Origin: Asterias amurensis | Taxonomy: Eukaryota > Echinodermata > Asteroidea > Forcipulatida > Asteriidae | Reading direction: 5' to 3' | Assembly (NCBI RefSeq): GCF_032118995.1 | Contig: NC_092655.1 | Coordinates: forward strand, 11,399,917 to 11,463,916 | DNA: 64,000 bases | Part shown: piece by piece, positions 31,710 to 57,015 of the stretch | How positions within the stretch are numbered: position 1 is the first letter of the stretch | Layout of the letters: the number at the start of each line of letters is the position of its first letter | Made by a program: the position numbers and the translations under genes | The notes under the pieces: generated by a model | What the model saw: only the letters and a program-made list of their open reading frames with translations | What the model was told of the DNA's origin: nothing | Databases searched by the model: none

Positions 31710-31960
31710 GTAGGTATGCTGATCATTAAAAACTCACTTGGTTAGTAGTACATCAGCTTTCAATAGTCTAAATCAATATGAGAATCATTTCACTTCGATG
31801 TAGTGTGGTTGTGGAAACACTTTTTATCCTCCAAAATTTGAATTTTAGAAACGTTACTGTCCAAAACGTTTTTCTGATTGTGTATTCCAATTGACTGAGC
31901 AGACTGTTTACTCGCTTTGTGATGAGCCAGGATTGCTGGCACATGTCTATGAACAACCAT

Positions 31961-32290
31961 TAAATAATAATAATAATAATTTGGGGGGCTAATCATCCTT
32001 ACTCGCTGCTAAGAGCTGAATTGCGAAGGACGCGGCTACAAGGTGTTCGAGAAGCAGGCATGTAAGGGCACCTTTGGCTGCAAGCCACATCAACCCATTA
32101 TGACCACAGAGCACAGCCAAGATCAAAAGTGTTTGATTTTTCCCGAGGGAGGAAAACTGGATGGTCTGGAAAACCCTTGTGGCACAGCAGAGAACCAACG
32201 CACAACTCAACTCACACATGGCCCTGGCCGGAATCGAACCGGGGTCACCTTGGTGAGAGACGAGCGCTTTACGCACAAGCCAACCATGCT
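31961..32290 (-). mobile_element. tRNA-derived SINE with (ATT)n tail
   Basis: Read on the minus strand the head is GGTTGGCTTGTGCGTAAAGC…GACCCCGGTTCGATTCCGGC, giving clear A-box and B-box spacing with an exact GGTTCGATTCC B box. A ~230-bp body follows, ending in an ATT-repeat tail (plus-strand (TAA)n at 31961-31980). The antisense 131-codon frame across it is not a gene. Confidence 0.8.
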
Positions 32291-32496
32291 ACTCACAAAT
32301 GAACTACAAATTATGTACATGTACTTCCTATTGAGTCACAACACAAGTCCCGCCCAGTGCTCCATACGCTCTGGAATGGCAGTTCAGGGCTTCCAGGTCA
32401 TCTTGGACGCATGGCTCTGGCAGGAATGGGCAGACTAGCAGGTGTTCCATTGTCTGTACCTGAAAATAAAGAGATCCATTTGATCCATTTGTTGGG

Positions 32497-32592
32497 TGTC
32501 ATGGCCGAGTGGGTAAGAGTATCGAATTCAAGTTCTGGTGGTTAGGTCATCGAATTGTGGGTTTGAATCCTGGTCGTGGCACTTGTGTCCTT
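32497..32592 (+). mobile_element. tRNA-Leu-headed SINE, 5' fragment
   Basis: GTCATGGCCGAGTGGGTAAG, then AATTCAAGTTCTGGTGG, then TGGGTTTGAATCCTGGTC. The long variable arm and CAA anticodon-like loop resemble tRNA-Leu. A CACTTGTGTCC body follows, as in the echinoderm SINE type I recall. It is cut off at about 32592 by the minisatellite. It could also be read as a tRNA-Leu pseudogene. Confidence 0.7.
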
Positions 32593-33760
32593 GCTGCATT
32601 GGGCCCGGCAGACAACCCTACTCCCCCGGGTTTTACGCATCAGAGGAATCGCCTGAAACCAAGTTGAAATGACCAATAACAATATTCTCAATACCAGTAG
32701 CAATCACCAGACGAAAGTTTTGCTGCATTGGGCCCGGCAGACACCTTCCCTCCCCCGGGTTAACATCAGAGAAACCACCTGAAACCAAGTTGAAATGACC
32801 AATATTTACACTATTCTTAATACAAGTATCATAACACGCCAGACAAAAAATTGGTGCATTGGGCACGCCAGACACCCCCTACCCCTTGGTTTAAGAATAT
32901 TGTTATTGGTAATTTCACTTGGTATTAGGTCGTTCCTTCGAAGTTTAACCCCGGGGTTGGGGAGGTGTCTGCCGGGCCCAATGAAGAAACATATGTCTGG
33001 CGGTTGATACTTCCCTTTGTATTAAGAATATTGTTATTGGTTATTTCAACTTGGTTTTAGGTGGTTCCTCTAAAACCCAGGGGAGTGGGGTTGTCTGCCG
33101 GGCCCAATGCAGCAAAACTTTCGTCTGGCAGTTGATACTTGTATTAAGAATATTGTTATTGGTCATTTCAACTTGGTTTCAAGTGGTTTCTTTGACGTTT
33201 AACCCGGGGGGGGGGGGGGGGGGGGGTATTTGTCTGCCGGGCCTAATGCAGCAAAACTTTTGTCTGGCAGTTGATACTAAGAATATTGTTATTGGTCATT
33301 TCAACTTGGTTTCAGGTGGTTCCTTTGATGTTTAACCCAGGGGGAGGGGAGTTGTCTGCCGGGCCCAATGCAGCAAAACTTTCGTCTGGCAATTGATACT
33401 TGTATTAAGAATATTGTATGGTCACATTTCAACGTGGTTTCAGTTGGTTCCTCTGATGTTTAACCCGGGGGAAGGGAGGTGTCTGCCGGGCCCAATGCAG
33501 CAAAACTTTCGTCTGGTGATTGATACTGTTCAAAGAATAGTGTTATTGGTCATTACTTGGTTTCAGGTGGTTCCTTTGATGTTTAACCCGGGGAAGGGAG
33601 GTGTCTGCCGCGCAAAACATTTGTCCGGCGTCTGACATTGTCTCGTGTTAAGAATAGTGCATTAGGCCTATTGGTAATTTCAACTTGGTTTTAGGTCGTT
33701 CCTCCGATGTTTAACCCCGGGGGTGGGGGTGTCTGGTAGGCCCAATGCAGCCAAACTATG
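32588..33760. repeat. ~115-bp minisatellite in two opposed arms
   Basis: Left arm (32588-32887): two to three units read TGCATTGGGCCCGGCAGAC…CCCCCGGGTT…CAAGTTGAAATGACCAATA. Right arm (32888-33760): about seven units read the exact opposite way (TATTGTTATTGGTCATTTCA…GGTTTCAGGTGG…TAACCCGGGG…TGTCTGCCGGGCCCAATGCA). The switch is at about 32888. G-runs vary in length, with up to about 20 G at 33208. Confidence 0.92.
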
Positions 33761-33833
33761 AATCAAGGGTCACAACTTAAATAGTATACACCTTTCAGCC
33801 GCACAGCTGGTGTCGTTATTAAATTACGGGCTT

Positions 33834-34376
33834 AACGTTTGAAAGAATACCACCACGACGTGCGGTGTCGGCCGGGGGCGGAGCTCCAAAAGGGGGAGAT
33901 TTTAGCATATTTTAAGAGGCTGTATCTCAGAAACGACATGGAGTATGGATTTAATTTTTGGTTTGTGTTCATTTTAGCCATAGTGGAACAATTAGACAAA
34001 GTTTCATGTAAATCTGAGGTAATTTGACAACTGGTTAATTTCAACCCATAGGTTTGTACACTAAATATTTGGGGGAGGGGGTGTCTGGAAAGGCCCAATG
34101 CAGCAGAAAATTTGTCTGGCGGTTGATTTTGTTTACTTAGTATCAAGGTAAAGCCCATTTCCACTTGGTTTCATGTGGTACCTAGAATCTTTGATTCAGC
34201 CCATTATTTTGCCTCTTTGTTGGGGGTCCATGCGCCACATGCAGCGGGGGGTCCCCGGCAGACATCCATATCTGATTATGTCAGGTTATCCACTAAACGT
34301 TCCTGTAGTCAAATATTGGTACCTCGTTCCTTTAACCAAAGTGCTCTGGGCTGCGGGTCTATAACCGTTTGTTATA
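33834..34376 (+). repeat. 540-bp dispersed duplicate, copy 1
   Basis: Collinear with 50526-51069. Shared landmarks are GAATACCACCACGACG, TTTTAGCCATAGTGGAACA, TTTGGGGGAGGGGGTGTCTG, GGGGGTCCCCGGCAGACATC and CTTTAACCAAAGTGCTCTGG. It ends in or next to a family B MITE in both places. The G-rich part resembles the minisatellite unit, so the element may have seeded it. Confidence 0.9.
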
Positions 34377-35630
34377 AAATGCATATGTTTAGAAAGATAT
34401 TTTAAAAGTAGAATATAATGACCCACTCAAGTATCACTCGAAATTGCGTGGTTTTCCTTTTACGTCGTCGATCAAAACGTCGGCCATCCGTAGCGACATA
34501 CGTTATCGGCCCTCATATGTTTTTGGTCCCCAACTTTGATTCCCGTTTATCGCGAAATTGTGCAAGCTGCACCGGTGAGAATAAAGTTTCCTGTCGTTGG
34601 TTATGCTCAAACATTTATATAATGATTGATTTTCGGTGCAAATCACTATTGCATTATTATGCCAACATTCAAATGAGTCAAAGAAACATCATCCAACCTC
34701 AAAAGTTCAAAACAAAATTACTATCTGCTAGATTGAGTTTCATTCTGCTTTAGTCACTAGATGGATCACGTGAGGTGGTTACTATTTGTGATACTATGGT
34801 GTGCAAATGTGGGGAAAATATTAAAATATTTTAAGTGAAAATGACAACAATTTTTTTTCGCTTTACTCATGCATGCTGTAATAAATTCCTATAAGCGTAA
34901 TAAATATTTAATCTACCTTAAAGATAAAATATCATAGATTGGTTTTTTATCTCCTGAGACCAAAAATTACTGGTCTGAAATGGGGGGGAAACGGATTGTT
35001 ATGAAGTGTGAGTGCATCAAGGGGGTGGGGTGTTTTACTTTTCATGCCTTATGATATCTCTGGATTCTAAAAAAGTAGCCATTATGCCTTAGGACAAAAA
35101 TGTAATTAAATTTGTTAAGTAATAATTGAATAATATTTTTGATTTATTTTGCACGCCATACTAGCTTCTGAATATTCAACAAAATACCAACCAATGAAAG
35201 GTGTGAAAACATATGACGTTGCTCCAATGTCAGGCATGCATAAGCACTGTTAATGGCGGACTGTCTCTCGCAACGTAAAACCAAAAGTTTAAAAATTTCA
35301 ACACACCATGAAGTGAAAGTGTTTTGTTAAAAAATTGGATAGATAATTTGAAAAAAAATATTTAGTTTTTGATTGTGAACAGTTTTTTTTGTTATCCTAC
35401 TGAAAACACATGACACCAGGATATGGGAGTCAAATTGTTGACTCCCATAAATGGCCGACCGTGTTAGTTCGCAAAGTAAAGAAAAACCACGCAATTTCGA
35501 GACAAATTTGCGTGGATCATTGTATTCTACTTTTAAATTATCTTTCTAACCATATGCATTTTATAACAAACAGTTACTATAACGCTTTTCAAAGACCAAC
35601 CCGACCGATCCAAGGCAACGTGTTCATTCA
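34364..35630 (+). mobile_element. Family B MITE split by inserted element C
   Basis: The left arm of the palindromic family B (34364-34486: TTTGTTATAAAATGCATATG … GAAATTGCGTGGTTTTCC) and its right arm (35424-35630: GGGAGTCAAATTGTTGACTC … GATCCAAGGCAACGTGTTC) are separated by 0.94 kb of element C. The uninterrupted arrangement is seen at 57723-58104. The insertion falls in the GGCCAT/ATGGGAG centre. Confidence 0.75.
34487..35423 (+). mobile_element. Element C, copy 1 (937 bp, unclassified)
   Basis: Begins CCGTAGCGACATACGTTATC and ends CATGACACCAGGAT. Related copies are 36246-36397 plus 46989-47148 (split), 47149-47520 (inverted right end), 53000-53400 (right part) and 55738-57015. No coding sequence is seen. 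The ends are not clear inverted repeats, so the class is unknown. Confidence 0.65.
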
Positions 35631-35639
35631 AACGAACGC

Positions 35640-35869
35640 TAGACTTGTGGACAAATCGTTAAATCGGCCCCACGCGCTGAGATAGTGGTCTCGCGAGATC
35701 ACTGCTCTCGCGCGAACTGATGGCTCCCCGATTTCGACTTCTCATTAATGAGGAGTCGAAATCGGGGAGGAGTCGAAATTGGGAGCCATCAGTTCGCGCG
35801 AGAGCAGTGATCTCGCGAGACCACTATCTCAGCGCGTGGGGCCGATTTAACGACTTGAACACAAGTATA
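35640..35869. mobile_element. 230-bp fold-back element with perfect 9-bp target duplication (MULE-like)
   Basis: Starts TAGACTTGTGGACAAATCG and ends with the imperfect inverse. The arms are about 95 bp and nearly complementary (CCCACGCGCTGAGATAGTGG … CCACTATCTCAGCGCGTGGG). AACGAACGC flanks both sides (35631-35639 and 35870-35878). A 9-bp duplication with long inverted arms is typical of Mutator-like elements. Relatives are 60145-61085 (full) and 51545-51665 (right half). Confidence 0.85.
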
Positions 35870-36245
35870 AACGAACGCACCCTCACGAGCTTTGAAGAAT
35901 GACGTCAGACGTTCAGGCTAACCATTACTTCACTCGGCCCCAGCGGCCAGTCTAAAGGCACTGGGGACGAGCGAAATTATGTTAATGGTCTGTTAAATGC
36001 ATAGAGTTACACAGTGTGTGTAGCGGGCGCCCTTCATATAATCAACAGTCTATCCTCCTGTCGAGTGTAAAATACAGAGGAGAGATTTGAGGGGAGAGAG
36101 GGACGACGTATGGGTTCATAAAACCATGATTCCAGAAAGATGTCAGGTCAGAGACACGGGTAAAGCTGGTAGGTGACATGTTGTTATAATTAGTTTTACC
36201 GGTGACAAAATTTGGTGCAATCTAGTCTGTGCCCCTACTCCTAAA

Positions 36246-36397
36246 GTCCTAGAACTATCGTAGCGTCATACATACGTTATCGACCCTCATATGTTTTCGG
36301 TCCCCAACTTTGATTCCCGGTTACCACAAGATTGTGCAAGCTGCACCGGTGAAAGAAGCTATGCAGTTTACTCACGGTCTGTATATTCATCAGGCTT
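36246..36397 (+). mobile_element. Element C, copy 2, left half (interrupted)
   Basis: TATCGTAGCGTCATACATAC … GCAAGCTGCACCGG … GTATATTCATCAGGCTT matches the start of the element C copies at 34487 and 55738. It stops exactly where the 10.6-kb transposon starts and resumes at 46989 on the far side. Confidence 0.85.
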
Positions 36398-36612
36398 CCC
36401 AGCAAACATAACAGCATTGGCCCAATGCTGGCTTGGTTCCGGTCCATACCGTTTGTATTGTATAGCGGCTGCCGGTATAATACGGCCAGCAAAGCGCCAA
36501 TGCTGGCTTTGTATTGGCAGCCGGTATATTGCCAATGCTGACGCGCTGATATCGGGCTGTAATGGGCTGATTTTGCGCCGGGTTAACCATTGCTCTATGG
36601 TTTAACTGCCAG
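36398..36612. repeat. Left subterminal array of the 10.6-kb transposon
   Basis: Irregular tandem words GCATTGGCCCAATGCTGGC, GCGCCAATGCTGGC, ATTGGCAGCCGGTAT and TTGCCAATGCTG in direct and inverted orientation. These are the same words as in the right array. Confidence 0.85.
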
Positions 36613-37312
36613 GCAATGCTAAAAAAAAAAATGCTGACTCACCGACACCGGGCCGTAATGGGCTGATTCTGTGCCGTGTTGTGCACAGAATGACGTACGC
36701 ACGCGGGTTGGTGTTGGTGCATTTTTCTTGTAATTTGAAATCGCATAATCGTGTCGCACCAAGACTAGTGTCGTTGCATCACAAACGCGCGTGCTAAGGA
36801 GTGATAAGGATACGCGGAGTTTAAAATTTGAAGTCAATCGTCATTTTCACTCATGCTTTTTACCGTTCATTTTGAAATGACAATACGTATTTTTAAGCAC
36901 ACTTCTCTAGCACGGAAGTTCCTTTAATACCTTCTGTGTATTACATTTATGATAAGTAGAGTACACTCGTATTTTTTATAAGTAGTAGTTCATAAGGGAT
37001 CGTTCACCGATAATATCAAACAAAAACTCCTTGATTTTCTGGTCACCTGCATATTAATTATTACAAGCAACGTGAACATTTATTGTACTGAATAAGACGT
37101 TAAGATGTGCACGGCGGATTAATATATATCAACAATTATCTTCATCTTCACTACTATAGTATTATTCATAAGGGATCGTTCACCAATACCGAACGCCTTG
37201 TTTAATAAACACAAAACTCCTTTATTTTCTGGTCAGCTGCATATGAACGTTTAACAAGTAAGACTTGTATTTGAATTTATGTAAACCTGTAAGTGTAACC
37301 ATAATTTGCAAA

Positions 37313-39319
37313 ATGTCTTCTTACTGGACAAAGCAAAGAAAAGTAAAACACCTTGTAAATCAACGCTTGCAAGAAATGGATGAACATGGTGCCTCTTGCA
37401 GTTCTGACAACACTAACAGTGAGCAGGTCTGTGCTGCCCCAGATGAAGATATTAATTCAGATATAATTGTCTTAAATGAAACCAGAAGTCAAGATGGTAG
37501 CGTAACGGCAATTAGTTCTGCGACAGAGTCTGATCTTTCTGGATAATGCCTCTGGGCTCTCTGATAATGAAATTGGTAATAAAAGTTTTGACTCGGAAAC
37601 TTCACAACACATCACAACTCACTCTTCACTAGGGGAACTGTTATCCATTCTTGGCAGCTTTCATCCTTCTCTCCCAAAGGACCCACGTACACTCTTGGCA
37701 ACTAACAAGGTGATGACATCTGAGGTAAAGCCCATAGGTGGCGGTTTGTATTACCATTTTGGTATTGCACATGGCATTCTGTCAAGGTCATCTCATCTAC
37801 ATCTACATCAGCTTGATCGTAACATCCGACTTCAAATAAACATCGATGGTCTTCCTTTATTTAGAGGAAGCAGTGCCCAGTTTTGGCCTATTCTAGGAGC
37901 AGTTTGTGAATCGTCATGCAGGTGTGATCCCTTATTATTGGTCTGTATTCAGGAAACTCGAAGCCAAACTGTCCCGAAGAATTTCTCAAAGATTTTGTTG
38001 ATGAAATGAAAGAGCTAGGAGAGAACGGACTTCAACATGAAGAAAAATTGTACAGTGTTTTTATTTCAGCCATAATTTGTGATGCCCCTGCACGTACTTA
38101 TATTAAACAGGTCAAATCCCATTCAGGGTACAGTGCATGCGACAAATGCACAGTTTCTGGAAATTATGACGGCAAAATAACCTTTCCCGTTCTTAATGCA
38201 CCACTCAGGACAGATGGCTCTTTCAACTTGAGGCTGGATGAAAACCACCACATTGGACAAAACCCTCTAAGGCGACTAGATGTTGGCATGATTTCTCAGA
38301 TCCCATTAGATTACATGCATTTGGTCTGTCTAGGAGCAATGAAGCGGCTTCTGGCACTTTGGATTAAGGGTCCTTTGAAATGTCGTCTCGGGCGTCGTAC
38401 ATGGTTGAAAATATCAGACTCTCTTCTCTCCCTCGGTGCGTCCATAACCCAGAGAATTTGCAAGACGGCCAAGGGCTCTTTCAGACGTTGACAAATGGAA
38501 GGCAACTGAATTTCGCTTGTTCCTATTATATACTGGACCAGTTGTATTGAAGGGTGATATTCCTGAACCTATGTACAACAACTTCATGCTCTTTTCCACT
38601 GCGATTCATATCCTAGCTAATCCATTCATATGTAATGCTTTGTGTGATTATGCGAAAGTCCTTCTTGTAAATTTTGTGCAGCATCTTTCAAGCTTGTACG
38701 GGAAAGACCAACTTGTGTACAATGTTCACTGCTTAATCCATCTCCCCGACGATGTGAAGCTGCATGGACCTCTTGATATGTTTCAAGCTTTCCTTTTGAG
38801 AATTTTATGCAGGTTTTGAAGTCAGGAAGCCTAACTTTGCTCTCAAGCAAGTTGTCTTAAGGATGTCAGAGAGGTCGGCCATGCTTTCCAAAGAATGTAG
38901 ATGTTTTGTCAAGCCAGACGATTTAAATCTGCGGATAGAACATACTAAGGGTCCCCTTCCGTCGGGACACTTGTATATATACCATGTACCCAATTCCGAG
39001 ATGCTGTCTTCAGCGAATGTGCTGTAGTTCAAAGGAAGGTGATAATTGTGTCAAGCTTGGACATGATGTTGTTGTAATTAAAAACATATTTCAAAGTAGG
39101 ACAGGGGTCTTCATTATGTACAGAAAATTCGAATCATCAGAACCATTCTTCCTCTATCCGGTGGATTCCCTGCAGTGTGATATACACAAAGTAGATAGAC
39201 TTGGTGACAATGTTCATATTGCAAGAATTCAGTCCGTGAAATGCAAGTACATGCTGCTTCCACACCATAATCAACATATAGCAATTCCAGTTCTACACAC
39301 TATGAACAGTTTTGTGTAG
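37313..39319 (+). pseudogene. tnp2-like (CACTA/Transposase_21-type) transposase, frameshifted
   Basis: Intronless ~660-codon gene broken by at least four frameshifts (near 37540, 37935, 38455 and 38800, with more disruption to 39000). It starts MSSYWTKQRKVKHLVNQRLQ. The conserved order is: LQINIDGLPLFRGSSAQFWP (candidate catalytic Asp); then YSACDKCTVSG (zinc-finger-like CxxC); then IPLDYMHLVCLGAMKRLLAL; then, after a shift, WKATEFRLFLLYTGPV; then YNVHCLIHLPDDVKLHGPLD. The LDYMH…L and VHLxxxVKLxGPL blocks parallel the NLDVMHIEKN and VHLxxEVxLCGPV blocks of plant CACTA tnp2. Animal genomes carry many uncharacterised proteins of this type. It is inactive as read. Confidence 0.8.
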
Positions 39320-39374
39320 GGAGATTTTGGATGTAGTGTCACACTCAATCTATTTTATAGCACTATCCTCATTA

Positions 39375-40440
39375 CGCTAGTTGGTGCCTTCAATACACAT
39401 GCCCCATTAAAGTCTAAGATGGTCACCGCTAGGCCCCGTGACCTTGGTTTAGTCAAGAAATCAACTCTGCCTTGAGGATGAGGAGACGTGCAGAAAAAAG
39501 AAGTGGCGACGAACAAACATGGTCTCTGATCTTTCTGAATATAAGCTTACGAATGATTTACTGATGAGGATGAATTCCCAACATGTAATTATTCTGCTTG
39601 TCCTTTTAGACCTGAGTGCAGCGTTCGATACTGTTGATCATGAAATTTTATTGAAACGTCTTCAGTCTAAATGTGGAGTCACTGGCAAGGCCCTTGATTA
39701 GTTTTCATCCTATTTATAGAAGTCAACGTGTATCCTCTCAAGGTACCTTATCAGAGAAGTTTAACATCAAATGTGGTGTTCCTCAGGGATCTTGCTTAGG
39801 ACCATTTTTATTTATTGTCTATGCCTCTAAATTGTTTGACATCGTTGAGCATCATCTGCCTGATGTTCATTGCTATGCCGATGACACTTTTGTCAAGCTG
39901 CTGTGACTATTATCGAAGATTGCATTAGGGACATCAGGCGATGGATGTTACATGACCGAATTTTAATTATTGATGCTAAAAGTGAATTTTTGATCATCGG
40001 AGAAAAAAAATAATATTTTCGATATAATGATAGGTGAAGACTGTTTTTCCTACAACATGTGTTCTTAAACTTGGGGTCTTGGTTCGATTCTGAACTTACA
40101 ATGAACACCCACATAAATAAACGCATTAGTCAATTCCTTACACAAGACTCTCTTTTAAAACTAATTCATGCATTTGCGACCAATCGTCTTGATTTTTGTA
40201 ATAGCCTTGTGTATGGTCTGCCAAAGTCACAATTAGCTAAACTACAAAGGGTTCAAAACGCAGCTGCCAGAATTGTTACCAACACACACTGATCTGAACA
40301 CATCGTCACCTAACACTCGTCAATTACATTGGCTACCTGTTTCTACAGGATTCATTTAAAGATCCTGTTGTTGTTATTCAAAGCTCTTCATGGTCTTTCT
40401 CCAAAGTACTTACAGGATCTTGTTTCCATCCGATAATTTT
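39375..40440 (+). pseudogene. CR1/L2-like reverse-transcriptase fragment, internally deleted
   Basis: The order is conserved but broken by frameshifts and a deletion. It has a linker (FNTHAPLKSKMVTARPRD; RRRAEK-rich), then LLDLSAAFDTVDHEILLKRL, then CGVPQGSCLGPFLFIVY, the catalytic CYADD, then RLDFCNSLVYGLPKSQLAKL and RQLHWLPVS-like. It lies between the transposase and the DUF4806 gene of the large transposon, so it is a nested later insertion. The palm follows the linker too closely, so several hundred bases of fingers are missing. Confidence 0.85.
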
Positions 40441-41082
40441 GTATGTCGGGGGCCCAATATAAATTTTAAATATTATTTGTTATCCGGGGTGTCGGAATAT
40501 GGAAGCGTCGGAGCATAAGGTTGGGGCAAACATGTCGATCTGTTCATTATTATTTAGTTAAGTTATTCATTGAGGTTTAAAGGTGCCTGTCCCCGGGAAA
40601 GGTCGAGACTTCACTGATGTCGACAGGAGTTATCTCATGTTGGCGGGACTCGCACCTGTAACCGTCTATGTGCAATTCACTAAATCGACATTATTTACTG
40701 AATTTGTGACCATTTTTGAATATAGTTCGAGCATTAGAATTAATAAGGAAAGTGTTAAATTATTATAGTAGTTAATTTGATTATTTATTTATTTTAAGAT
40801 ATATACGGGTTGTCGGGATACAACGGCTGTTCTACATTATGGTCCTGTGTATAAATGTGGGGGAAACCTACTTGAGAGTCAGAGTAAAAAGAATTGATAA
40901 CAAAATCAATCATAACACTATCATTACATTAACAATATTAATAACAATACCTGTCCTTAATGGTAAGCTTGATGGTTGAAAAACAGTAACTTTCGTGCTA
41001 AGGTGTGCTCACAAAGCTCTAAACAGGTAAATCATTGCATGTGCTTCAACAAATGCATGCACGCCTATCTCTTAGTTTTAAA
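40441..41082. other. Spacer upstream of DUF4806 gene
   Basis: AT-rich. No recognised promoter element. A 61-codon open frame at 40583-40768 is unsupported. This interval would hold the promoter of the DUF4806 gene. Confidence 0.4.
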
Positions 41083-44000
41083 ATGTATGCGGTTGTCGTG
41101 TTCACTGAAACGAACGAAGTGGAGCTGGTCCCTACAAATTGGCTCAGCCGATCAAAGGATACAGTGATGTGGCCACCTTTCAGGTCGTCGGCAGCCCTCA
41201 CCAAGGCAACCAGGGAACATCTTAGGCCTGAAGTAGACACATGGCTGTTGTTTAAAATCCGACTGCTGTGTACAACCCGTAAGTATTAAACATACCACAA
41301 ATTAATGATCAGTATGAAAATTAAAATACATTTTACTTTATAAAACATACAATAGAATCATGTTAACTTGATCTTCGGTCAACAATTCCAGTTGCTTCAC
41401 AAACATACATTTCAACAGAAATGAAAAGAAAGTATATTTCCACGGTACATTAATTAAATAATGAATTAATTAATTTCTTTTACAGAAAGCTACGAGGTTG
41501 GTCGGCAAAAGGTCAGGATGGCTGAGGACACATCAGATGTGCAAACAGCTCAAGAGGAGATTCAACCATCCAAGCGAAAGTAAGTATGAGCAGTATGTGT
41601 AAAAGTTGAATAATAACGGACTTTCATTTAATATAATGTTTACATTGCAACACTTTACAAACATTCATTCTGCCCGATACACTACTCCCAGTAGATGTTC
41701 TCAGGATGTTCTCAGGAGCTGATTTAAAAAAAAAAGGTGATTATTTTTACTTGAAGGCGCAGAAGGCCAACAAGCTGGACCTCCAGTGATGAGAGCGATG
41801 GGGACGAAGTAGTAAGGCAACCCAAAAGGGCAACACGAGAGGCACCACCGCTGCAAGATGCGCCTTCAATTCCATTGCATGTTGGCAGCAAACTGCTCAT
41901 GTCCAGACAAGGTTTGTCTTTCTCATCAAACTATTTATGACAAAATAAATGAACAGTCACTAGTCTTTAAAAGAATTTGGGTAGTTGTATAACACATTGG
42001 AATTATGCGTTAACTCAGTTGGTAGAACGTTAATCCGGGGAGCGTTAGTTGAAATTCCGCCCTGGTTTTGTTTTCTTCTCAACCCAAAGTTGACGGTGTT
42101 TGGCAACGTTTACACATGCAAGCCTCGATTGACCACTAGGCCTACATGAAACTATTTCCCCATTGAACATGCATTTCAGGTCCATTCACAACCCCCAAGT
42201 TCGCATCGTGTAGCACACTTTACCTGTCAAAGCTGTTTAGCTGTTTCTTGTTCTTAATAAAACGACGACGAGCTACAATTAATTCCTAACAAAAGTATTG
42301 TATATTTTTCACAGGGGAAAATAGGCCCGTCACTCCAAGAGAAGTGCCAAACGCAGGTGAGTTAAAAATATTTCCTTTCCTAGAAATGAGGTAAACGTTT
42401 TTGAAATGTTTGATGGTTGATGAATTGATAATGTATAACAATGTACGACCAGAGTTTATAAAGTGTAGTCTGGTTTGAGATAGACCTACCAAAGACATGA
42501 GCTAACTTCTCTCTCTCTCTCTCTAGTCGACCGGGGTCGGAATCATGCTAAGTTTTGCCCATCCCTGTCGATCTCTCATTAAGTTGGGAAGATCAGCTGG
42601 AAGCACCCCGATGTCCCTGGCAACTACATCTGTATAACTGAGCCTTTGTTTTCCCCTGTCTCTCCTTCCATGTTTCCATGTTTCTCCTTCCATGAGCTAA
42701 CTTGAACAACCAATAAAGCAAATGTCACCAACGTTGACATTCATTTCATTGAATGAAACGTGTTATTAATAATGTCAAAAATGAATAGCTTTACTATGGC
42801 TAGTTTGGACTTCACCTTGTATAGGTTTAAACAGTGTTCAACTTTGAACAAGTCAGTACCATTTTAACACTAGGTCTTTAGTACTGCTATGCCAATAATA
42901 AATATAATTTTCAAAGTCTCATGTAGTTTAGTATAACAAAATGGCATTATTTGTAATTAGTTTGCATTGTTGTATATAGGAACTATGATGACCTTGCTAA
43001 AAGCCATTAGTGAGGTGCAGGTTGCTGTACAATCAATCCAACAGGAACTGAAATCATAACGTAGGATCTTTGAAAAACGGTATTGCGTCTCAACTTGCCA
43101 AAGGAGAGGCGGAACCCCTGCCTGGAGATGTCAACTTACCCCTTACTACCAATGAAGACGTTCAAGCATTAGAGCTCGTATTAAAGAGCAAAAAGGCACG
43201 CGATGCATTGGTTAGTTTAATTATACTCGAAATATCATAGGCAGAAGTAGCGATCTAGTCACAAGAGTGGTATTTTTAATATAAAAATGTTGTATACATT
43301 TTCTTTTCTTTATAGACCAACTACTTTGTTGGCATTGGAGGTAGTTCAGCCAAAGATGCTGTACAACGAATACTGTCTAGCACGCTTGATCACCAGCTAA
43401 CACTGTCCTACAACTGGGCTGGACGAGGGGTTGGAAGGGCCAAAGTATGGCCACCAAGAAAGCCTTTGGCGTCTTGACACTAGCATCAGTGATCACACGT
43501 AAGATTACTATTCTTTCAATTATTGGAAAAAAAAACATAAAATTGATAAACTTTTAATTTAATTATGCTGTCTCTCCCTCTCTCTCTCTTTCTTGGAGAG
43601 TAGTATCTGTTTTCTGTGTTTTGGTTTGGTTTTTGGTTTTACTGCGCCTTGAACACCCAGCAGGGTGGATATGTGCGCATTACAAGTCGTATGATTATTA
43701 TATTATTACTAGTCTATCCTCCTCAAATTATACTTCGCTGGTAAATTTTACTTCCACCACAACCGGTCTTTGTCTTTCCAAACTTTCTGTTATCACAACA
43801 ACACAAAACGTCCACGGGTATATTAAAATTAAGATTCATTACAAAAGATAGTGATGTAGTAAGAGCAAAACTACATGGAATTTCATGCACACCAAGGCAA
43901 GTTTTCTGTACATTTGTTTTAGGACATATCTTTTAGTCAACAGAAGTGTTTTAATTTGCCCATTATTATCCTCTACTCCTTTTAGGAGCAATACAAAAAC

Positions 44001-44152
44001 TACCAAATCAATCCGTTTCGGCAAAAGAGGTCGAGAAGGAGATGATGGCGTGGCTGAAGAATGCTGGAGACAGAAATGGGGGTGGAAAGAAGAGGGAGCA
44101 GGCGAAACAAGGAGAGGAGGAGGAGAGTGACCTCCAATCAATTGAAGGATAA
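41083..44152 (+). pseudogene. Seven-exon DUF4806-family gene, two frameshifts
   Basis: Exons: 41083-41278, 41486-41579, 41757-41911, 42315-42356, 42980-43210, 43316-43498, 43986-44152. All have consensus splice sites and matching phases. Exon 1 gives MYAVVVFTETNEVELVPTNW and VMWPPFRSS, the N-terminal module of this family. Exons 2-3 join to PSKRKRRRPTSW, a strong nuclear-localisation-type basic cluster, then an acidic stretch. Exons 5-6 carry DUF4806: LPLTTNEDVQALELVLKSKK, NYFVGIGGSSAKDAVQRIL and LDHQLTLSYNWAGRG. Exon 7 is Lys/Glu-rich, ending SDLQSIEG. Two one-base shifts break the frame: near 43057 (TAA inside exon 5) and near 43447 (exon 6). Frames resume perfectly afterwards. The disruptions are either recent inactivation or sequence errors. 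The predicted length is about 355 residues. The biochemical function of DUF4806 is unknown; nuclear location is inferred. Confidence 0.8.
42007..42065 (+). mobile_element. Degraded tRNA-derived SINE head in intron 3
   Basis: GCGTTAACTCAGTTGGTAGA (A-box-like) is followed by GCGTTAGTTGAAATTCCGCC (B-box-like) with near-tRNA spacing. It could be the head of a SINE or a tRNA pseudogene. Confidence 0.5.
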
Positions 44153-46375
44153 CCTTCTATGTTTCGGAGCGCGATTATTGCACCCCCCATTCCAAGTTTT
44201 CTGACTCGTTGTATAGTCCATGTAATCATCTCCTTTAAAAGAGGTTGGCTCTCAAAACCAAAGTATGCTTATAAAGACATTCAACAAATTAGCATGGTAT
44301 CGTACTTTTGGGCCCAATTTCTGCATGTACAAATGTTATGCTATTAAAATTTGGAACGTAAAGTATTAGTACAGTAGGTCTAATTTTGTTGGTGTTTAGA
44401 ATTCGTTTTATAAATACAGACCAAAAAGACTGTTCACCAAATCTATTTTAAAAATTTTGTTTCTTCCAAAACCTATTGATAAAATAATTGATCAGCTCCT
44501 GGACAATTTTTTGCACCATGACAAGTCTCTGATTGAGGCGTCTGTCTTGAAGTGAAGGTAGCTGGATTTCTTTCAGCATAGCAGTGGCAGGGCTGCGCGT
44601 CTCTGAGGCCTCGATTTTTCTGAATATTCGTAATAGTATAATGGGGGTCCTACACTGAGCAGCAGTATTCGACGTGGGGGCGAACTAGACTCGTGTAGGC
44701 TTGTGGACTGTTGAAAGTAGTTGGTTCGCACATAATCTTCTAGTTCGAAAACCATGTTGGCAGCTGTTGAGAGCCTTGTGTGATCCAGGTGACACAAGAT
44801 GCGACTGAAATGATAAAAAGTACTGGAGAGGAGTTGATAGTATAAAGCATTGTGAGAAACGGCTCCCTCTGATCTGCAGTGACTTGGGAGCAGAGTCGCG
44901 TCAGTCCATTGCACATGCTAAAATAAGCTGAGATCGTTAATTTTGCAAAAATGCAATTTTTTTTAAATTTTGGTTACCTGCATGGTGGGATTTGAAACGT
45001 TGCATGATGGAAATACGGTATGGAAAGGTTTGCTCCAGAGTTAAAACCAACGTTTCTTTTCAGAACCACTCAACTCATTATATAGTCAATACATGGTGTA
45101 AACCTTTTCCACATTATTGTCTGTGCTTAGCAAGTTGTTATGCTCACAGATTTTTGAAATTGGCTTATTTCACAAAGAGCTTCGATTGATCTTTTAAAAT
45201 GCAAACCAATTGTACTTGCTAAGCAAAGTGTGACGTCATAATGCGAATTACTATGGTAATACTGACAACAATGAATATGTTACTTTGTGAAATTAATTAC
45301 AGCCAACAACTCTTCAAAGGAGAATATTAACAATTAGGTATGCATAAGTTATTGTTATACAATTTGGTCCATTCTAGAGGACACCTTCTTCTGCGTTCTA
45401 CACATTTCATAATGGCTTCTCTCGTGAAAAAATGAACCTCTATTTTGGAAACGGCGGCGCTGTTTTAATGCACTTCATGCTATTAAGTTAGGAAAGACAA
45501 TAACTTTCAAGTTGAGAACTATTTACTTAAGTTTGTAATGAATCTACAGGGTACCTTGTTTATTTAAGGATAGTTCTATATGACCAATTCCAACCCTTGC
45601 GGTTTGTTGAACCGGCCGAACGGTGCCACCCTTATTTTGGTATTTTTCGGCTAAATTTAAGAAAGATTTAATTGCTAACAAACATGCTGTGAAGGGTTAG
45701 GAAATTAGGGAAGTTTAAGAGCAATTACGTTCCAATTTTATCATAATTTCACAAAACCACCAAGGGGTCTGTTAAGGATTTGCAAATCATGTCATTGTAA
45801 AGCATTAATGTTTGTTATTTACTTTTAAAGTTTATAATGTTGCGGACTGTTAAAACAAATTTGTGTTGAGGATTGTTCACAAGTAATGTATTGCGGATTG
45901 TTAAAACAAAGTGTTGAGGATTGTGTACAAATGTACTGCATTGTTTAAAAAATGTTTTGAGGATTGTTAGAAACAAAATGTTGCGGATCGTTAAAGGAAT
46001 TCCTGTAGATTTTTCTGATCAAGTTTATGTTTATGTGGTTTTAAAATGTACCATTTTCATCGTATTTCAGCATATTGCAACAAATGACAGTTGACCCAAA
46101 TAAGTTAGGCGACTAAGTGGCACCATGCAGCAGGCCTAGCCTATATACGTGTGGTTTCGGCTTGGTGAATGAAACTTGGAAATGGGTTTATGTCAAACAT
46201 AGTTAATTACTCTTTTCAGGTTTTCACAAGCAAGGCTCAATCATATAGAGCTGTTTGAAAAATGTTCTACTAGGCATACAGCATTTAATAAATGGCACAT
46301 GTTACTTGGTATGGTAACCTCATTCTGGTAAGCATTATTTTGTTGTGTTTAGCCACTTTGCGCATGCTGCGCAGG
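44153..46375. other. Right interior of the large transposon, no supported gene
   Basis: Contains a short family A fragment at about 44816-44880 (GAGAAACGGCTCCCTCTGA). A repeat at about 44985-45125 shows GTTGCATGATGGAAATACGG with an inverse-like AAACCTTTTCCACATTA. It resembles 19795-19870. A minus-strand frame at 44573-44914 has no recognised domain. Short iterations of TTGCGGATTGTTAAAACAAA lie at about 45840-46000. Confidence 0.4.
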
Positions 46376-46556
46376 ACCCAATTACATAGAGCTGCTTATA
46401 AAGCATAAAAATGTGTACTTAAGCACAGCAATATTGGGCATTCGCGATTGAGGTTACCAGCAAAAATGGCATGTCACGTGTACAATTTGTGTTTCCTGCT
46501 CATTTCTGCTAAGCAGGGACTTGTACGCAAACTGTTCTGCTTAAGCAGCTCTATTA
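46376..46556 (+). mobile_element. Family D MITE, fullest copy
   Basis: From GACCCAATTACATAGAGCTG, then GCTTATAAAGCATAAAAATG, then GAGGTTACCAGCAAAAATGG, then GCTCATTTCTGCTAAGCAGG, to CTTAAGCAGCTCTATTATTT. It is an imperfect palindrome about 180 bp long, nested in the large transposon. The outermost GGGCCCAATTTCAT end is degraded here and is better seen at 26930 and 30778. Confidence 0.65.
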
Positions 46557-46742
46557 TTTAGCAAGGTCATTAGCTCAACCCATCCTTTATAAATGGAGTA
46601 TAGTAATATTTAATAATTAATAGCATTTTTTATCTGAATAAAAAATGAAAAACAAATTACGCACAAAAACCAAGAATTGTAGCACATTTTACATTATTTG
46701 TGTACTGTGTAATTAATATTATTTACGATTTTTTTTTAGGCA

Positions 46743-46986
46743 ACCATAGGGTCAATATTGGGGCAAACATTAACATTGGGTCAATACCCGGGCCAACATT
46801 AAGCCAATATCGGGCCAACATCGGGCCAACATAAGGCCAACGTCGGGCCAGCATCGGCTACCAGCATTGGGCCAATAACGCGGCAATGAGCAAAACGGTA
46901 CTGGCCCAATGCCGGCAGCCAGCATTGGGTCATAATGGCAGCCAGCATTGGCCCAGTATTGGACCAATGCTGTTATGTTTGTTGGG
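46743..46986. repeat. Right subterminal array of the 10.6-kb transposon
   Basis: At least a dozen words of the type GGGCCAACATCGGGCCAAC, GCCAGCATTGGGCC and ACATTAAGCCAATATC are spaced about 14-20 bases apart. They run up to the terminal inverted repeat. They are the inverse-related counterpart of 36398-36612. Confidence 0.88.
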
Positions 46987-46988
46987 TT

Positions 46989-47148
46989 AATCATGCTGAG
47001 AATAAAGTTTCCTGTCGTTGGTTATGCTCAAACATTTATAAAATGATTGATTTTTGGTACTAATCACTAGTGCATTAATAATATTATGCCAACATTCAAA
47101 TGAGTCAAAGAAACATAATCCAACCTCGAAAGTTCAAAACAAAATTAT
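46989..47148 (+). mobile_element. Element C, copy 2, continuation after the large insertion
   Basis: AATCATGCTGAGAATAAAGT … GTTGGTTATGCTCAAACATT … TTCAAAACAAAATTA continues element C from 36397. It then stops at the junction with an inverted copy of the element's own right end. Confidence 0.85.
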
Positions 47149-47520
47149 CCTGGTGTCATGTGTTTTCAGTAGGATAACAGGAAAATTGTTCACAATCAAA
47201 AACTAAATATTTTTTTTTTCAAATCATCTATCCAATTTTCACTTTTAACTTAAATTAACTTAAATTTTTAAAGTTTTGGTTTTACGTTGCGAGAGACAGT
47301 CCGCCATTAACAGTGCCTATGCATGCACGACATTGGAGCAACGTCATATGTTTTCACACCTTTCATTGGTTGGTATTTTGTTTAATATTCAGAAGCTAGT
47401 ATGGCGTGCAAAGTAAATCAAAAATATTATTCAATTACTACTTAACAAATTTAATTACATTTTTGTCCTAAGGCATTATGGCTACTTTATTAGAATCCAG
47501 AGACGATAGCCTCATATACT
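47149..47520 (-). mobile_element. Inverted right end of element C
   Basis: Reverse complement of 35040-35423: ATCCTGGTGTCATGTGTTTT at the start (the element's right terminus), then the TTTTACGTTGCGAGAGACAG and GAAGCTAGTATGGCGTGCAA landmarks. Copy 2 therefore has its right end inverted and its middle (equivalent to 34724-35040) missing. Confidence 0.85.
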
Positions 47521-50149
47521 TTGTCATAGTTCTACTAAAGTATCGTAGGTCCTTTTTTCGAGGTGTCCCTAAAATCGTGGCAAATCTTTTACCATTTTGT
47601 GCACGATGTAAACAGTCCCTAGATTAAAAATTGTGTGGTTTTATTTGCCAAGCAAAGAGTTTCCTCTCCCTTGACCAAAACTTAGAAACACGTAAGGCTC
47701 CACTGGTCATTTGCACTATTTCTTTGAATTGGGAAAAAAATAATGATGCGATATATCAACCGATGCCCTAATTATCTTCATTTGTTTATATTTAGTATGC
47801 AAACATTAATTAAAACTTGATTGTTGATGGACATTGATATTTTCACACCACACACTGATCTTCAATGACTTCAACTGTTCCCATTTGTTTTGAGTTTTTC
47901 CTGTTTTCAAGGCAAACGAGAAATAATGGTTTCCCGGTGAAGCCATACGTAAAAGAAATATCTGCAGTGACTGCAAGTGTTCTGTGAGACTCTGTATATG
48001 ACTCTATAGCCAGCAGTTGTCTTCATTTTATTCACAATTTTTTTTATTTGTTATGACATTTTAAAAATTACCATGGTAAAGTGCAAAAAATAAAAAAATA
48101 AAAATAAGTGTGAATAATTATTGGCTTTTAAATATGATTTTTATTTACTTTTAATTTAAAAAAAATTCCCCTAAATATTTATAATAAAGCGTAAAAATAA
48201 AAACTGATAATTGAAACACCAAGCTGATGTTTAAATTTTAATATTTATAATAATATTGATACGAGGATTAAAAAAGAAATCTCAAAAAATATTAGAAAAT
48301 AATATAAGGCACATGGCTTCTTTAAGCCTCTGTATTATTTTCCCAGAATGCTCAGCAGAATGTTCAGTCACATGATTTGATCATCGTGAATTGTCATGTG
48401 TTTGTGCACGGAAAGTGTGGTTTTACATTGCCCTCATTGTAATGATTTTGCTGCCAATATTTTTAATAATTGCCTCCATTAAGTATTGTGTGTGGCTTGG
48501 TTTTATAAGAATTTTAAAAGTTTTAAATGTGCATTGCACAACACAACAAAGTGAATACTTTTCTCATGAACAACATTTTATAACATTTTTGTTTCTCCAG
48601 GTTATGCTGAGGATTTAAAGTAATACTTGTGGTTGTGCTGCTCATTGCACTTTCCTTCACATTAGCGCTTAACAGTTAGTTACATCCAATGGATTCTGAG
48701 TAAGTTATTTGGTGCTGTATTAACTTTTAAGAGCTCCCTTACAGTGATAGCAGCTATGCTTTGTATAGCATTTAAGCATAAATATAAAATAAATATCAGG
48801 CAATGTTCTGGATCCCCAGTTCTGTTTTTAACTGCAGGGCATTCTCGACTTATTTTGTTAGCTTCTCCTGTAAAGCACTTAATACGAGGCCCGCAGAATG
48901 CTTTTTATTGGTTTTGATGTACTGCTGCGCAATCTGGATTAATCTAAAGGGTTTTATCATTGAGGCCTATGCATACATTTTTGTTATTTTATTTTGAAGT
49001 AAAAAAAATCATTACCGTTTTTTGTTATTTTGCGTTGGCGTATTGGCTGCAATTTTGCTGTAAAGTTGATACAGTGTGGTAATCACACCTTCTCATATTT
49101 TGATATTTTTAAGTTCAAATGAAACGTCACTTGTCGTTACTCAAACAATAAATTTAAAAATGGTAAAAAGAAACAAACTGGTCACCAGGCCTTTGCCCAA
49201 ACCATGGCGAGAGGTGTGTATCGCCAACATAGAACTAAAAGTCACTAATTACACAGTGTTATTCTTCGTTTGCCTTTCATCGAAGAGTACTGGTATTCAT
49301 GCTCAGAACTGTCCGTTATTCTGTGGATTATTGTAGCTAAGCAAAGTCACCCAATGTTAGGATTGATTTTAAAGCGGTTGGGTAAAATGAGGAGAGTGGG
49401 GATAAAGGGAAAGATGGGGTAAATACATGTTAGCGGCAGGTCACTGTTGTGAATAAAGAAGGAGTTGATTGGTACAGAAAGTTGATCCTTATGCTGCCTT
49501 CATGGTCATACTGTGGATTGTTGCTTGGCTGATTTGGGCAGTATGACTTTATAAGGATTTATAATTTTTAACAATGTTTGAGATTGCGGAGTGGATTCTC
49601 TGGTCAAAAGATTACACATTGATACATCAAAGGACACATAGAGCCTAATTTTGGCGAGATAAAAAAAAAGAAAAAAAAGAGAGATTCCTGATTTCAAAAT
49701 TCATTGAACCATGGGTCGTTAAACGCATGAGAGATATAAACCTATGAGGTTACGGGAGACGATAGCCGGATGAAACCGAAATATTTCTAGGAGTACCTTT
49801 TTCGCTGGCCATTTTTGTGCTGTAGTAAATTTCTCTGTAGTGCATCTGACCAGGAGGTAGACATTTCTACCTCCATGATCTGACTTTGTGTTTACGGAGG
49901 TATTGGTCTGCGTTCAGACCACCACGTATTTAACAGAACTTTGTCACATCCTGCACTCTCTGTAACCGCAAAACCACAACAAACATTTACCGCCAATACG
50001 ATCGCGCGCGCGTTTCCACGCATTTTTCATGTTATAGTCCACATAGGGCCTACTGATAATGAATAAAAGTTTTCCGTTTTACGGCAGCATTTTATGCAGC
50101 CTTAAACGATTTATATATAAGGCCTATAAGAATATTACTTATCTCTGAT
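47521..50149. other. AT-rich intergenic region, no supported gene
   Basis: Long AT-rich stretch (extremely so at about 48040-48310). Open frames here (e.g. 48391-48618, 49076-49336) are short, hydrophobic or featureless and lack splice support. A CGCGCGCG cluster lies at about 50004. Confidence 0.45.
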
Positions 50150-50221
50150 TTCATATGGGGGGGGGGGGCAAGAGGGGGGGGGGCGCCGGCCCCCCCTGCC
50201 CCCCCTCTGGTTACGCCACTG
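50150..50221 (-). mobile_element. End of a TE with CAGTGGCGTAACC terminus and GC-rich runs
   Basis: Read on the minus strand it is CAGTGGCGTAACCAGAGGGG, followed by alternating G- and C-runs. The CAGTGGCGTAAC end is a terminus I associate with DNA transposons of many invertebrates. Only this end is present; the family B MITE begins right after it. Confidence 0.4.
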
Positions 50222-50516
50222 GTTGTAAAAGTAGAATACAATGATCCACTCAAACATGCCTCAAAATTGCGTGGTTTTCCTTTTACCTCGTCGCCTAACA
50301 TGTCGGCCATTTATGGGGGTCAAAATTTTGACTCCCATAAATGGCCGACCGTGTTAGTTCGCACAGTAGAAGGAAAACCACGCAAATTCGAGGCAAACTT
50401 GTGTGGATCATTGTATTCTACTTTTAAAACATCTTTCCAACCATATGCATTATATAAAAACCGCTTACAAACGCTTTTGTTTTGACCAACTCGTCCGATC
50501 CAAGGCAACGTGTTCC
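50222..50516 (+). mobile_element. Family B palindromic MITE, left end truncated
   Basis: GTAAAAGTAGAATACAATGA … the near-perfect centre GGTCAAAATTTTGACTCCCA with its mirror GGCCATTTATGG/CCATAAATGGCC … CGATCCAAGGCAACGTGTTC. It is the same order as 57723-58104 but lacks the first ~80 bases. Confidence 0.85.
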
Positions 50517-50525
50517 TTTAACAAT

Positions 50526-51069
50526 TTGAAAAGAATACCACCACGACGCGCGGTAGTTCGGGGGTGGAGTGCCTAAAGGGGGAGATTTCAGCATATTTTA
50601 AGAGGCTGTACCTCTGAAACGATATGGAGTATGGATTTAATTTTTGGTTTGTGTTCATTTTAGCCATAGTGGAACAGTTAGACAAAGTTTCATGTAAATC
50701 TGAGGTAATTTGACAACTGGTTAATTTCAACCCATAGGTTTGTACACTAAATATTTGGGGGAGGGGGTGTCTGGCAGGCCTAATGCAGCAGAAAATTTGT
50801 CTGGCGGTTGATATTTTTTACTAAGCATGATGTTAATGACCATTTCCACTTGATTTCATGTGGTATACCTAGAATGTTTGATTCAGCCCATTATTTTGCC
50901 TCTTTGTTGGGGGTCCACGTGCTACACACAGCGGGGGGTCCCCGGCAGACATCCATATCTGACTATGTCAGGTTATCCACTAAATGTTCCTTTACTCAAA
51001 TATTGGTACCTCGTTCCTTTAACCAAAGTGCTCTGGGCTGCCGCTCTATTACTAACGCTTTTCAAAGAC
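50526..51069 (+). repeat. 540-bp dispersed duplicate, copy 2
   Basis: Partner of 33834-34376 in the same orientation, with scattered substitutions and small indels. In both places family B sequence adjoins, suggesting the two repeats were moved or duplicated together. Confidence 0.9.
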
Positions 51070-51109
51070 ATACTCGAACGATCCAAGGCAATGTTCCTTT
51101 AATAGCTTC

Positions 51110-51540: not shown

Positions 51541-51544
51541 GAAC

Positions 51545-51665: not shown

Positions 51666-51673
51666 ACAAGTCT

Positions 51674-52337: not shown

Positions 52338-52369
52338 ACTATGAGGGGCCGTTTATGACTTAATGAGCA

Positions 52370-55450: not shown

Positions 55451-55737
55451 TTACGCATTGCTTTGTTGTAAATACAACAATCTTGAAATAAACTTTAAAA
55501 ATCAGCAATAAAACATGACCCCTTTGTATATTAATGGTAGTGAATAAAAATAAATAAAATAAATGTCTGACCTAAAGAACGAAAGTCCAAAACATCGGTG
55601 TATCTACCATACAAAAATACACAAACAATTCTTATTGAGAAAAAGCTCAAGGAATGATAGCGAGTCACTCCTGGCGTTTGGAAACTAACATCTACCACAA
55701 CGGGGTCGACCCAGGGAAGCTAAACGAACGCACCCAA

Positions 55738-57015
55738 CTATCGTAGCGTCAAACGATATCGACCCTCATAATTATGTTTTCGAACCCTCAACTTTGATTA
55801 CCGTTTACCGCGAGATTGTGCAAGCTGCACCGATTGCAAAAGCTATGCAGTTTACTCACGATCTGTATTTTTATCAGGCTTAGACGTTGGTTATGCTCAA
55901 ATATTTATGAAATTATTGATTTTTGGTACAAATCACTAGTGCATTATTATGCCAACATTCAAAATGAGTCATAGAAACATCATCCAACCTCGAAAGTTCA
56001 AAACAAAATTACTATCTGCAAGATTGAGTTTCATTTTGTTTTATACGGTGGCTCACATCCGCCAATTCCTAGAGAACTCTTGTTTTATTTTACGGCGATA
56101 TATCGCCATACTATTGCGTTATATCGCCGTACTAGTGCGTTACATCGCCGTATTATTGCGTTATATCGCCGTATTTTATTGCGTTATATCGCTGTATTTT
56201 ATTGCGTTATATCGCCGTATTTTATTGCGTTATATCGCCGTACTATTGCGTTATAGCGCCGTCCTATTGCGTTATATCGCCGTACTATTGTGTTACATCG
56301 CCGTACTAGTGCGTTATATCGCCGTATGTTTTTGCGTTATATCGCCGTACTATTTATTGCGTTAAAATCGCCGTTTTTTATTGTGATATCAGCATTCTAC
56401 AGGGCAAAGACACAAGGCACGACGTCCGAGGTCCAAGTTTTTTTTCAGGTGAGTTGAGACCTTGTTTTAATTACTTATTTCAGTCTAATTAGGGCACATT
56501 AATTGTGAATTATACTTGTTTATTGCTGATTCGAGCAGTCCCAACATTAACACAGTACGGCGATATAACGCAATAAAATACGGCGATATAACGCTAGAAA
56601 ATACGGCGATATAACGCACTAGTACGGCGATATAACGCAATAGTATGGCGATATATCGTCGTAATATAAAACAAGAGTTCTCTAGGAATTGGCGGATATG
56701 AGCCACCGTAGTTTTAGTCACTAGATGGATCACGTGAGGTGGTTACTATTTGGGATTCTATGGTGTGCCAATATGAGGAAAAAAATTAAATATTTTAAGT
56801 GAAAATGACAAAAAAATTTTTTGGATTAACTGCATACTGTTATAAATTCCGATAAGCGTAAAAAATATTACGTCTATATTAAAGAGAATATATCATAGAT
56901 TGGTTTATTATCTCCTGAAACAAAACATTACTGGTCTAAAATGGGGGAAAACGGATTGTTATGAAGTGTGTGTGTTTTAAGGGAGGTGGGGTGTTTTACT
57001 ACAATGCCTTATGAT
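55738..57015 (+). mobile_element. Element C, copy 3, carrying a fold-back insertion
   Basis: CTATCGTAGCGTCAAACG at the start, then GCAAGCTGCACCG, GTTGGTTATGCTCAAAT and AAGATTGAGTTTCATTTTGT. A 667-bp insertion follows, then AGTCACTAGATGGATCACGT and GGGGTGTTTTACTACAATGC. It is cut at 57015 where TGTAACGTCGACTTAAGC begins; TGTAAC could be an LTR boundary. The right third of element C is missing. Confidence 0.85.
56044..56710. mobile_element. Fold-back element built from TATCGCCGTA minisatellite
   Basis: Ends TACGGTGGCTCACATCC and GGATATGAGCCACCGTA. GTTTTA flanks both sides (56038-56043, 56711-56716). The empty site exists at 34747-34752 in element C copy 1 (GCTTTA). The left arm has about 15 units of TTGCGTTATATCGCCGTACT (19-21 bp); the right arm has five units in inverse orientation. 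No coding sequence. Superfamily undetermined. Confidence 0.85.

Follow-up and report, generated by a model that had tools for sequence, protein, structure and literature searches.

In a 64,000-nucleotide stretch of the genome of the sea star Asterias amurensis (C8:11,399,917-11,463,916; hereafter the window, whose own numbering is used for positions without a contig name), the segment at 36398-46986 is a single DNA transposon insertion with CCCA..TGGG termini, and within it lie the remains of a transposase gene and of an intron-containing gene for a DUF4806 protein. We consider it fairly probable that these form a two-gene animal transposon, in which a transposase of the CMC type is accompanied by an integral DUF4806 gene whose product is a putative end-binding partner of the transposase. 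Further copies were sought across all 23 contigs of the assembly (491,506,623 bases), which are written here as C and a number.

Structure of the insertion and its ends

An earlier, sequence-only reading of the window had taken the matched termini and their TT/TT flanks as the borders of one unit, and had named two separate insertions, one for the end at 36398 and one for that at 46986, as the alternative. The terminal sequence CCCARCAAACATAACAGC is found exactly at 36398-36415 (+) and 46969-46986 (-); with up to three mismatches, it has 3 matches in the window against 0.18 expected. The arms of the terminal inverted repeat are 34 nt long and 91% complementary. Two further copies of the host repeat that surrounds the insertion are present in the window (55736-56011 and 34489-34720). 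The first of these is an empty site that reads ATCAGGCTTA without interruption and with a single TT, compared with ATCAGGCTT, element and TTA at the filled site; no CC or GG in it is assignable to the target, and it lacks 24 nt starting 3 nt beyond the junction. The copy at 34489-34720 is without the insertion junction. Because the paralogous copy at 55736-56011 carries a single TT, the TT/TT flanks are the target-site duplication and the left and right ends belong to one insertion. The borders first drawn therefore stand, and two separate insertions were rejected as contradicted by the empty site. An assembly join, or two unrelated insertions that mimic a single element, would find some footing in the nested repeats and segmental duplications that abound in this region; it is nevertheless very improbable, given the single TT of the empty site, the end-to-end collinearity of a copy on contig C7 that matches the whole element at 97.4%, and a gene model (P0121, see below) that spans from the left end to the DUF4806 exons.

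The dense subterminal repeats reported at both ends were likewise borne out. The 9-mer CCAATGCTG/CAGCATTGG has four occurrences in the left 303 bp, another four in the right 250 bp and none in the remaining 63,447 bp, the expectation being a mean of 0.02 over 1,000 shuffles of each end. Counted inward from either terminus, the first exact motif is opposite in orientation to the three that follow, and one inverted pair of the form ATTGG-CCAAT stands in the left end, two stand in the right end and one lies elsewhere in the window. The features of the insertion and its ends are as follows.

36396..36397, no strand: left copy of the TT target-site duplication (empty site with single TT)
36398..36431, plus strand: left terminal inverted repeat, which begins CCCAGCAAACATAACAGC and extends into the first subterminal motif pair
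36398..36700, plus strand: left end with four exact CCAATGCTG in ordered orientation; GC 51% versus 38% inside the element
46745..46986, minus strand: right end, a subterminal array with four exact CCAATGCTG and 11-bp tandem units
46953..46986, minus strand: right terminal inverted repeat
46987..46988, no strand: right copy of the TT target-site duplication (empty-site comparison)
55736..56011, plus strand: paralogous empty target site (host repeat copy without insertion)

The two genes and their arrangement

The class of the transposase rests on homologues, because none of its pieces in the window reaches a Pfam cut-off (DUF4218 scored 14.2 bits against a cut-off of 27). With the read-through sequence (X at frame breaks) as query, 3,588 of the 7,962 proteins scored were found at E<=1, the best of them 53% identical over 99%. 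The 120 homologues listed, which include proteins of Holothuria, Patella, Penaeus and fish, share 37-53% identity across 78-100% of the query. Residues D207, D286, C305/C308, H501/H505 and E525 are invariant in all 30 aligned homologues (30 of the 120 listed), and both D, the E, and the CxxC and HxxxH residues are legible in the window pieces. Pfam scans (E<=0.01) of 20 homologues from the same list (19 of at least 724 residues, and P0001) detected DUF4218 in 11 and Transposase_21 in one; none of the 20 carries DUF4806, and a fused transposase-DUF4806 protein was rejected on this account.

According to the available text of its description (PMC12730594), the CMC(T) clade (EnSpm/Mirage/Chapaev/Transib) combines a DDD/E transposase that has C(2)C and H(3-4)H between the second D and the last E with terminal inverted repeats and a 2-5 bp target duplication; its 5'-CA..TG-3' termini are found "in most cases" and are no strict criterion. 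The homologue alignment and the residues legible in the window agree with the first of these features, and the 34-nt arms and TT duplication with the second, while CCCA..TGGG departs from the usual CA..TG. Strict CACTA elements are described as having CACTA/TAGTG termini and a 3-bp duplication (PMC4158355). Because the termini here are CCCA..TGGG and the duplication is 2 bp, the element is filed by its transposase class and not as CACTA. On homology, the transposase is assigned to the CMC type (EnSpm/Mirage/Chapaev); the frame-broken transposase of the sequence-only reading is thus present, and its label "CACTA-type" is not strictly right. Between the transposase and the DUF4806 gene lies a nested fragment of a long interspersed nuclear element (LINE), recognised by PF00078 (9.3e-08 on 39655-39903) and by a tblastx match to the reverse transcriptase at 61.2-62.0 kb. 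It is akin to the larger reverse transcriptase at 61.2-63.4 kb (-), falls inside the C7 alignment and is unmatched in a further copy on contig C10.

37313..39319, plus strand: decayed CMC-type DDE transposase in several frames, catalytic and C2C/H(3)H residues still readable
39453..40292, plus strand: nested truncated LINE reverse-transcriptase fragment (limits approximate)

The intron-containing DUF4806 gene, which had been proposed to share the orientation of the transposase, does so: seven exons are left, with GT-AG introns and two frame breaks. The full read-through protein (X at the two breaks) scores 28.1 bits for PF16064, above the cut-off of 25, and its C-terminal part, read in the same way, scores 30.3 bits. 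Since both genes in the window are broken, domestication at this locus was rejected. When the window protein alone served as query, 0 of the 3,261 candidates reached E<=1. A profile search in which two typed seeds were added to it (7,992 scored) returned two matches at E<=0.01, namely P0121 from A. amurensis and a catfish DUF4806 protein. P0121, which probably comes from another A. amurensis assembly, is identical to the N-terminal half of the window protein at 174 of 179 residues and aligns gap-free over the first four introns present in the window copy. No relatives were found in scans of viral and GTDB contigs, and a contig pattern scan produced three exact pattern matches, none with the end motif. 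Sequence searches of PDB yielded nothing useful, Rfam yielded no match, and a genome-wide PF16064 scan gave 0 matches, but 14 control genomes were likewise silent.

P0121 opens with 13 residues that are lacking in the window and are encoded exactly (13/13) at C7:7,890,063 on the minus strand. This first exon is set 421 bp in from the left terminus of the C7 element and is followed by a GT donor; intron 1 is 4,272 nt long and contains the transposase, which is itself broken at C7, and the acceptor immediately precedes the DUF4806 start. The next three exons of P0121 are identical to C7 (65/65, 31/31 and 51/51 residues). In the window copy, exon 1 falls in a missing stretch of 54 nt. At C7, therefore, the P0121 gene model has the layout of En/Spm, with a second gene that runs from the left end and a transposase in its intron 1. 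In maize, the tnpD frame is described as lying within intron 1 of tnpA, at the 5' end of the element (PMC2613891).

36850..36851, plus strand: point at which this copy lacks 54 nt that are present in C7, where they hold the first exon of the DUF4806 gene model with its splice donor
41076..41278, plus strand: exon 2 of the full DUF4806 gene, the first left here; acceptor CTCTTAG, then TTTTAAAATG; conserved N-terminal module, WPP
41486..41579, plus strand: DUF4806 gene exon (GT-AG, P0121)
41757..41911, plus strand: DUF4806 gene exon; basic KRKRRR stretch across the preceding junction
42315..42356, plus strand: DUF4806 gene exon
42980..43210, plus strand: DUF4806 gene exon in which the DUF4806 domain starts; frame broken once
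43316..43498, plus strand: DUF4806 gene exon with the remainder of the domain and one frame break
43986..44152, plus strand: last exon of the DUF4806 gene, with stop

Other copies and constraint on the genes

Searching the genome with the DUF4806 protein gave at least 19 matches at no fewer than four loci (the window, C7, C10 and C8:11.21 Mb). The transposase is linked to three of these at least four loci, or to two of three if C7 is omitted as a segmental duplicate. The end pattern, at up to two mismatches, matched the genome seven times (two in the window, one each on C7, C16 and C17, and two on C6), and a reversed control matched nowhere. At C7 the match continues into the flanks, at 98.0% over 5.6 kb on the left and 98.3% over 2.5 kb on the right, and C7 was rejected as an independent insertion because flanks some 98% alike over kilobases mark a segmental duplicate. 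C16 retains the right part of the element only and has its right flank in common with the window. The duplicated spans are 30845-50423 of the window against C7:7876001-7896000 and 46987-53723 against C16:6753577-6760000; these duplications (~98% identity, three contigs) reach the limits of the compared stretches. At C16:6739539-6739967, 2 of the 120 homologues give a weak match of transposase type (26-27% identity); the right part of the element duplicated on this contig is ~11 kb away.

At C10, a transposase and DUF4806 exons occur in the same order and on the same strand as in the window, the pieces longer than 100 nt being 70-84% identical. The flanks of C10 are unrelated to those of the window except for dispersed repeats, and the nested LINE is missing. 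We compared the window and C10 copies by the Nei-Gojobori method with bootstrap. The ratio of nonsynonymous to synonymous substitution rates (dN/dS) was 0.51 for the transposase (bootstrap 0.40-0.65; 477 of 644 window codons aligned) and 0.32 for the DUF4806 gene (0.21-0.49; 204 of 345 codons aligned), values that omit unaligned codons, stops and lost core exons and so favour the conserved parts. Since dN/dS is below 1 between the two copies, both genes were probably under constraint while the window and C10 lineages separated. Numbers are small for the window and C7, with a dN/dS of 0.16 (0.04-0.46) from 14 changes in the transposase and 0.60 (0.18-2.51) from 12 changes in the DUF4806 gene; the transposase changes divide into nine synonymous and five nonsynonymous, though both copies are broken.

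Copies of the ends alone are also present. Two lie on C6 (C6:6618058 and 6634988), 16.9 kb apart inside a duplicated 2.75-kb stretch, and one on C17 (C17:9738571). What C6 and C17 have in common with the element is the ~240-bp right-end array and nothing beyond it: the sequence on either side differs at each site, and the similarity ends abruptly at the inner border of the array. A short dispersed repeat within the element (44811-44872) has several copies in the C6 and C17 stretches that were examined. Further DUF4806 stretches at C8:11205213-11205365 and 11209674-11210469 could be host genes or relics.

Gene capture is common among transposons. The DUF4806 gene may accordingly be captured host cargo, in which case the transposase alone would recognise the ends and the pairing of the two genes would be functionless in transposition. 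DUF4806 stretches that stand without a CMC transposase at C8:11.20-11.21 Mb fit such an origin, as does the result that the genome scans revealed no second, independent insertion of full length that has both ends. However, the gene model places exon 1 at the left end, beyond the transposase, which simple downstream capture would not yield, and C10 repeats the gene order with dN/dS well below 1 for both genes. Considering these points together, we regard mere cargo as rather unlikely.

Elsewhere in the window, long tandem arrays occupy 312-1855, 13109-14417 and 15390-17015 (units of 141, ~144 and ~177 nt, respectively), and 25112-25933, which codes for an alpha/beta hydrolase (Abhydrolase_3, 4.7e-38), appears to be a normal host gene.

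Proposed role of the DUF4806 protein and its parallels

DUF4806 has been described as a subtype of the BEN DNA-binding domain (PMC11075544, citing Pan et al. 2023), and the BEN protein Insensitive of Drosophila reportedly binds the palindrome CCAATTGG as a dimer and multimerises (PMC6317261). The end motif of the sea star element resembles the Insensitive site in having CCAAT half-sites, some as inverted pairs. It differs in that neither end holds an exact copy of the palindrome CCAATTGG, and in the reversed arrangement of its half-sites, with 0 occurrences of CCAAT-N0-6-ATTGG in either end; a BEN match by sequence to the window DUF4806 protein was likewise sought and not found. Because both CCAATTGG and CCAAT-ATTGG are absent, the likeness to the known BEN site is confined to the CCAAT half-site. 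These departures of the end motif from the Insensitive site would suit a protein that serves a chromatin, boundary or anti-silencing role, to protect or regulate the element, and takes no part in end synapsis; BEN proteins have been portrayed as repressors and as factors of chromatin boundaries (PMC6317261, PMC11732705). Such a role is nonetheless distinctly unlikely: each end offers a natural binding substrate in its dense array of private motifs, and the C6 and C17 insertions have only the ~240-bp array in common.

Most likely, the DUF4806 protein would bind the ends of the element as the partner of the transposase. Transcription would start near the left end. If intron 1 were retained, or a second start used, the mRNA would encode the transposase; if intron 1 were removed, the left-end exon would be spliced to the DUF4806 exons, so that alternative splicing could act as a switch. 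The DUF4806 (BEN-type) protein, probably a dimer, would occupy CCAAT-containing sites mirrored in both subterminal arrays, where it might pair the ends or open them, and it may additionally repress the left-end promoter. The transposase would then cut at CCCA..TGGG and insert the element with a 2-bp duplication.

Several observations weigh against this end-binding role in a two-gene element. Beside the missing palindrome, the end motif has its half-sites in the reverse of the order known for BEN, and this reduced our confidence. Structure models of P0121 and P0122 have a mean predicted local distance difference test score (pLDDT) of 42 and 46, too poor for fold comparison. P0121 is a gene model, isoform X2, and ends before the DUF4806 domain. 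At C10, exon 1 of the DUF4806 gene was not found, inverted ends were looked for and none was recognisable, and the core DUF4806 exons are deleted or unreadable (417 bases versus 2,087 in the window copy), with no alignable codon and a 40% match with 8 stops over residues 207-354. Neither C7 nor C16 adds a new insertion, both copies being segmental duplicates of the one in the window. Neither a partner end, a transposase nor DUF4806 was found in the 40 and 25 kb examined around the C6 and C17 ends, respectively, and no CMC-type transposase lies within 20 kb of the DUF4806 stretches at C8:11.20-11.21 Mb (0 of 120 homologues match). Finally, in the available part of a cnidarian survey, one table has DUF4218 present where the DUF4806 count is 0 or 1 (PMC7642931).

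The sequence-only reading had cast the DUF4806 protein as the animal counterpart of TNPA, the protein that binds the subterminal repeats of the maize element (PMC2613891). The occurrence of both genes in one element, their recurrence at C10, the exon-1 layout, the reported BEN type and the private end motif all favour this part of the proposal, and the functional analogy is strongly supported by the layout, by the recurrence of the pair and by the constraint on both genes; binding, and a need for the protein in transposition, we infer. The wider proposal of that reading, in which DUF4806 proteins in general would be accessory proteins of transposons or their domesticated relatives, is a conjecture, and the locus at C8:11.20-11.21 Mb has DUF4806 stretches but no CMC-type transposase in 20 kb. 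The sea star element is like maize En/Spm (tnpA/tnpD) in its same-clade DDE transposase, its long subterminal repeat arrays and its second, multi-exon gene, as well as in the position of the transposase in intron 1 of that gene (at C7). In contrast to maize, its termini are CCCA..TGGG and not CACTA, its target duplication is 2 bp and not 3 bp, and its second protein is of DUF4806 (BEN-type). The plant second proteins TNPA and TNP1 are themselves described as unlike each other (PMC2613891). With the animal EnSpm/CMC elements of Holothuria, Patella, Penaeus and fish, the transposase shares the invariant DDE, CxxC and HxxxH residues, and the tunicate CACTA element ENS1_Cis is reported to duplicate 2 bp of its target (PMC6004678). 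Unlike the sea star element, the animal elements are not mentioned as having a DUF4806 partner in the available parts of their descriptions.

Our literature search found no established function for DUF4806 proteins and, in the open literature (subscription papers and Repbase entries lay outside the search), nothing that describes a DUF4806 gene within a transposon. The family is expanded in some lineages: in available excerpts of the cnidarian survey, DUF4806 genes number 69 and 54 in two Hydra species versus 0-6 in five other cnidarians (PMC7642931). A tentative and wider possibility is that animals have an En/Spm-like system, with a left-end promoter, alternative splicing, a CMC transposase and a DUF4806 end binder, and that multicopy DUF4806 proteins, perhaps including some BEN chromatin factors, descend from such end binders or remain so.

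DUF4806 proteins occur in many animals, and the locus in the window gives one of them a concrete candidate job. The locus also suggests that animals, too, have the tnpA/tnpD layout of maize, with a second protein that is unrelated to the maize one; this layout would either have been inherited from a common ancestor or have evolved twice.

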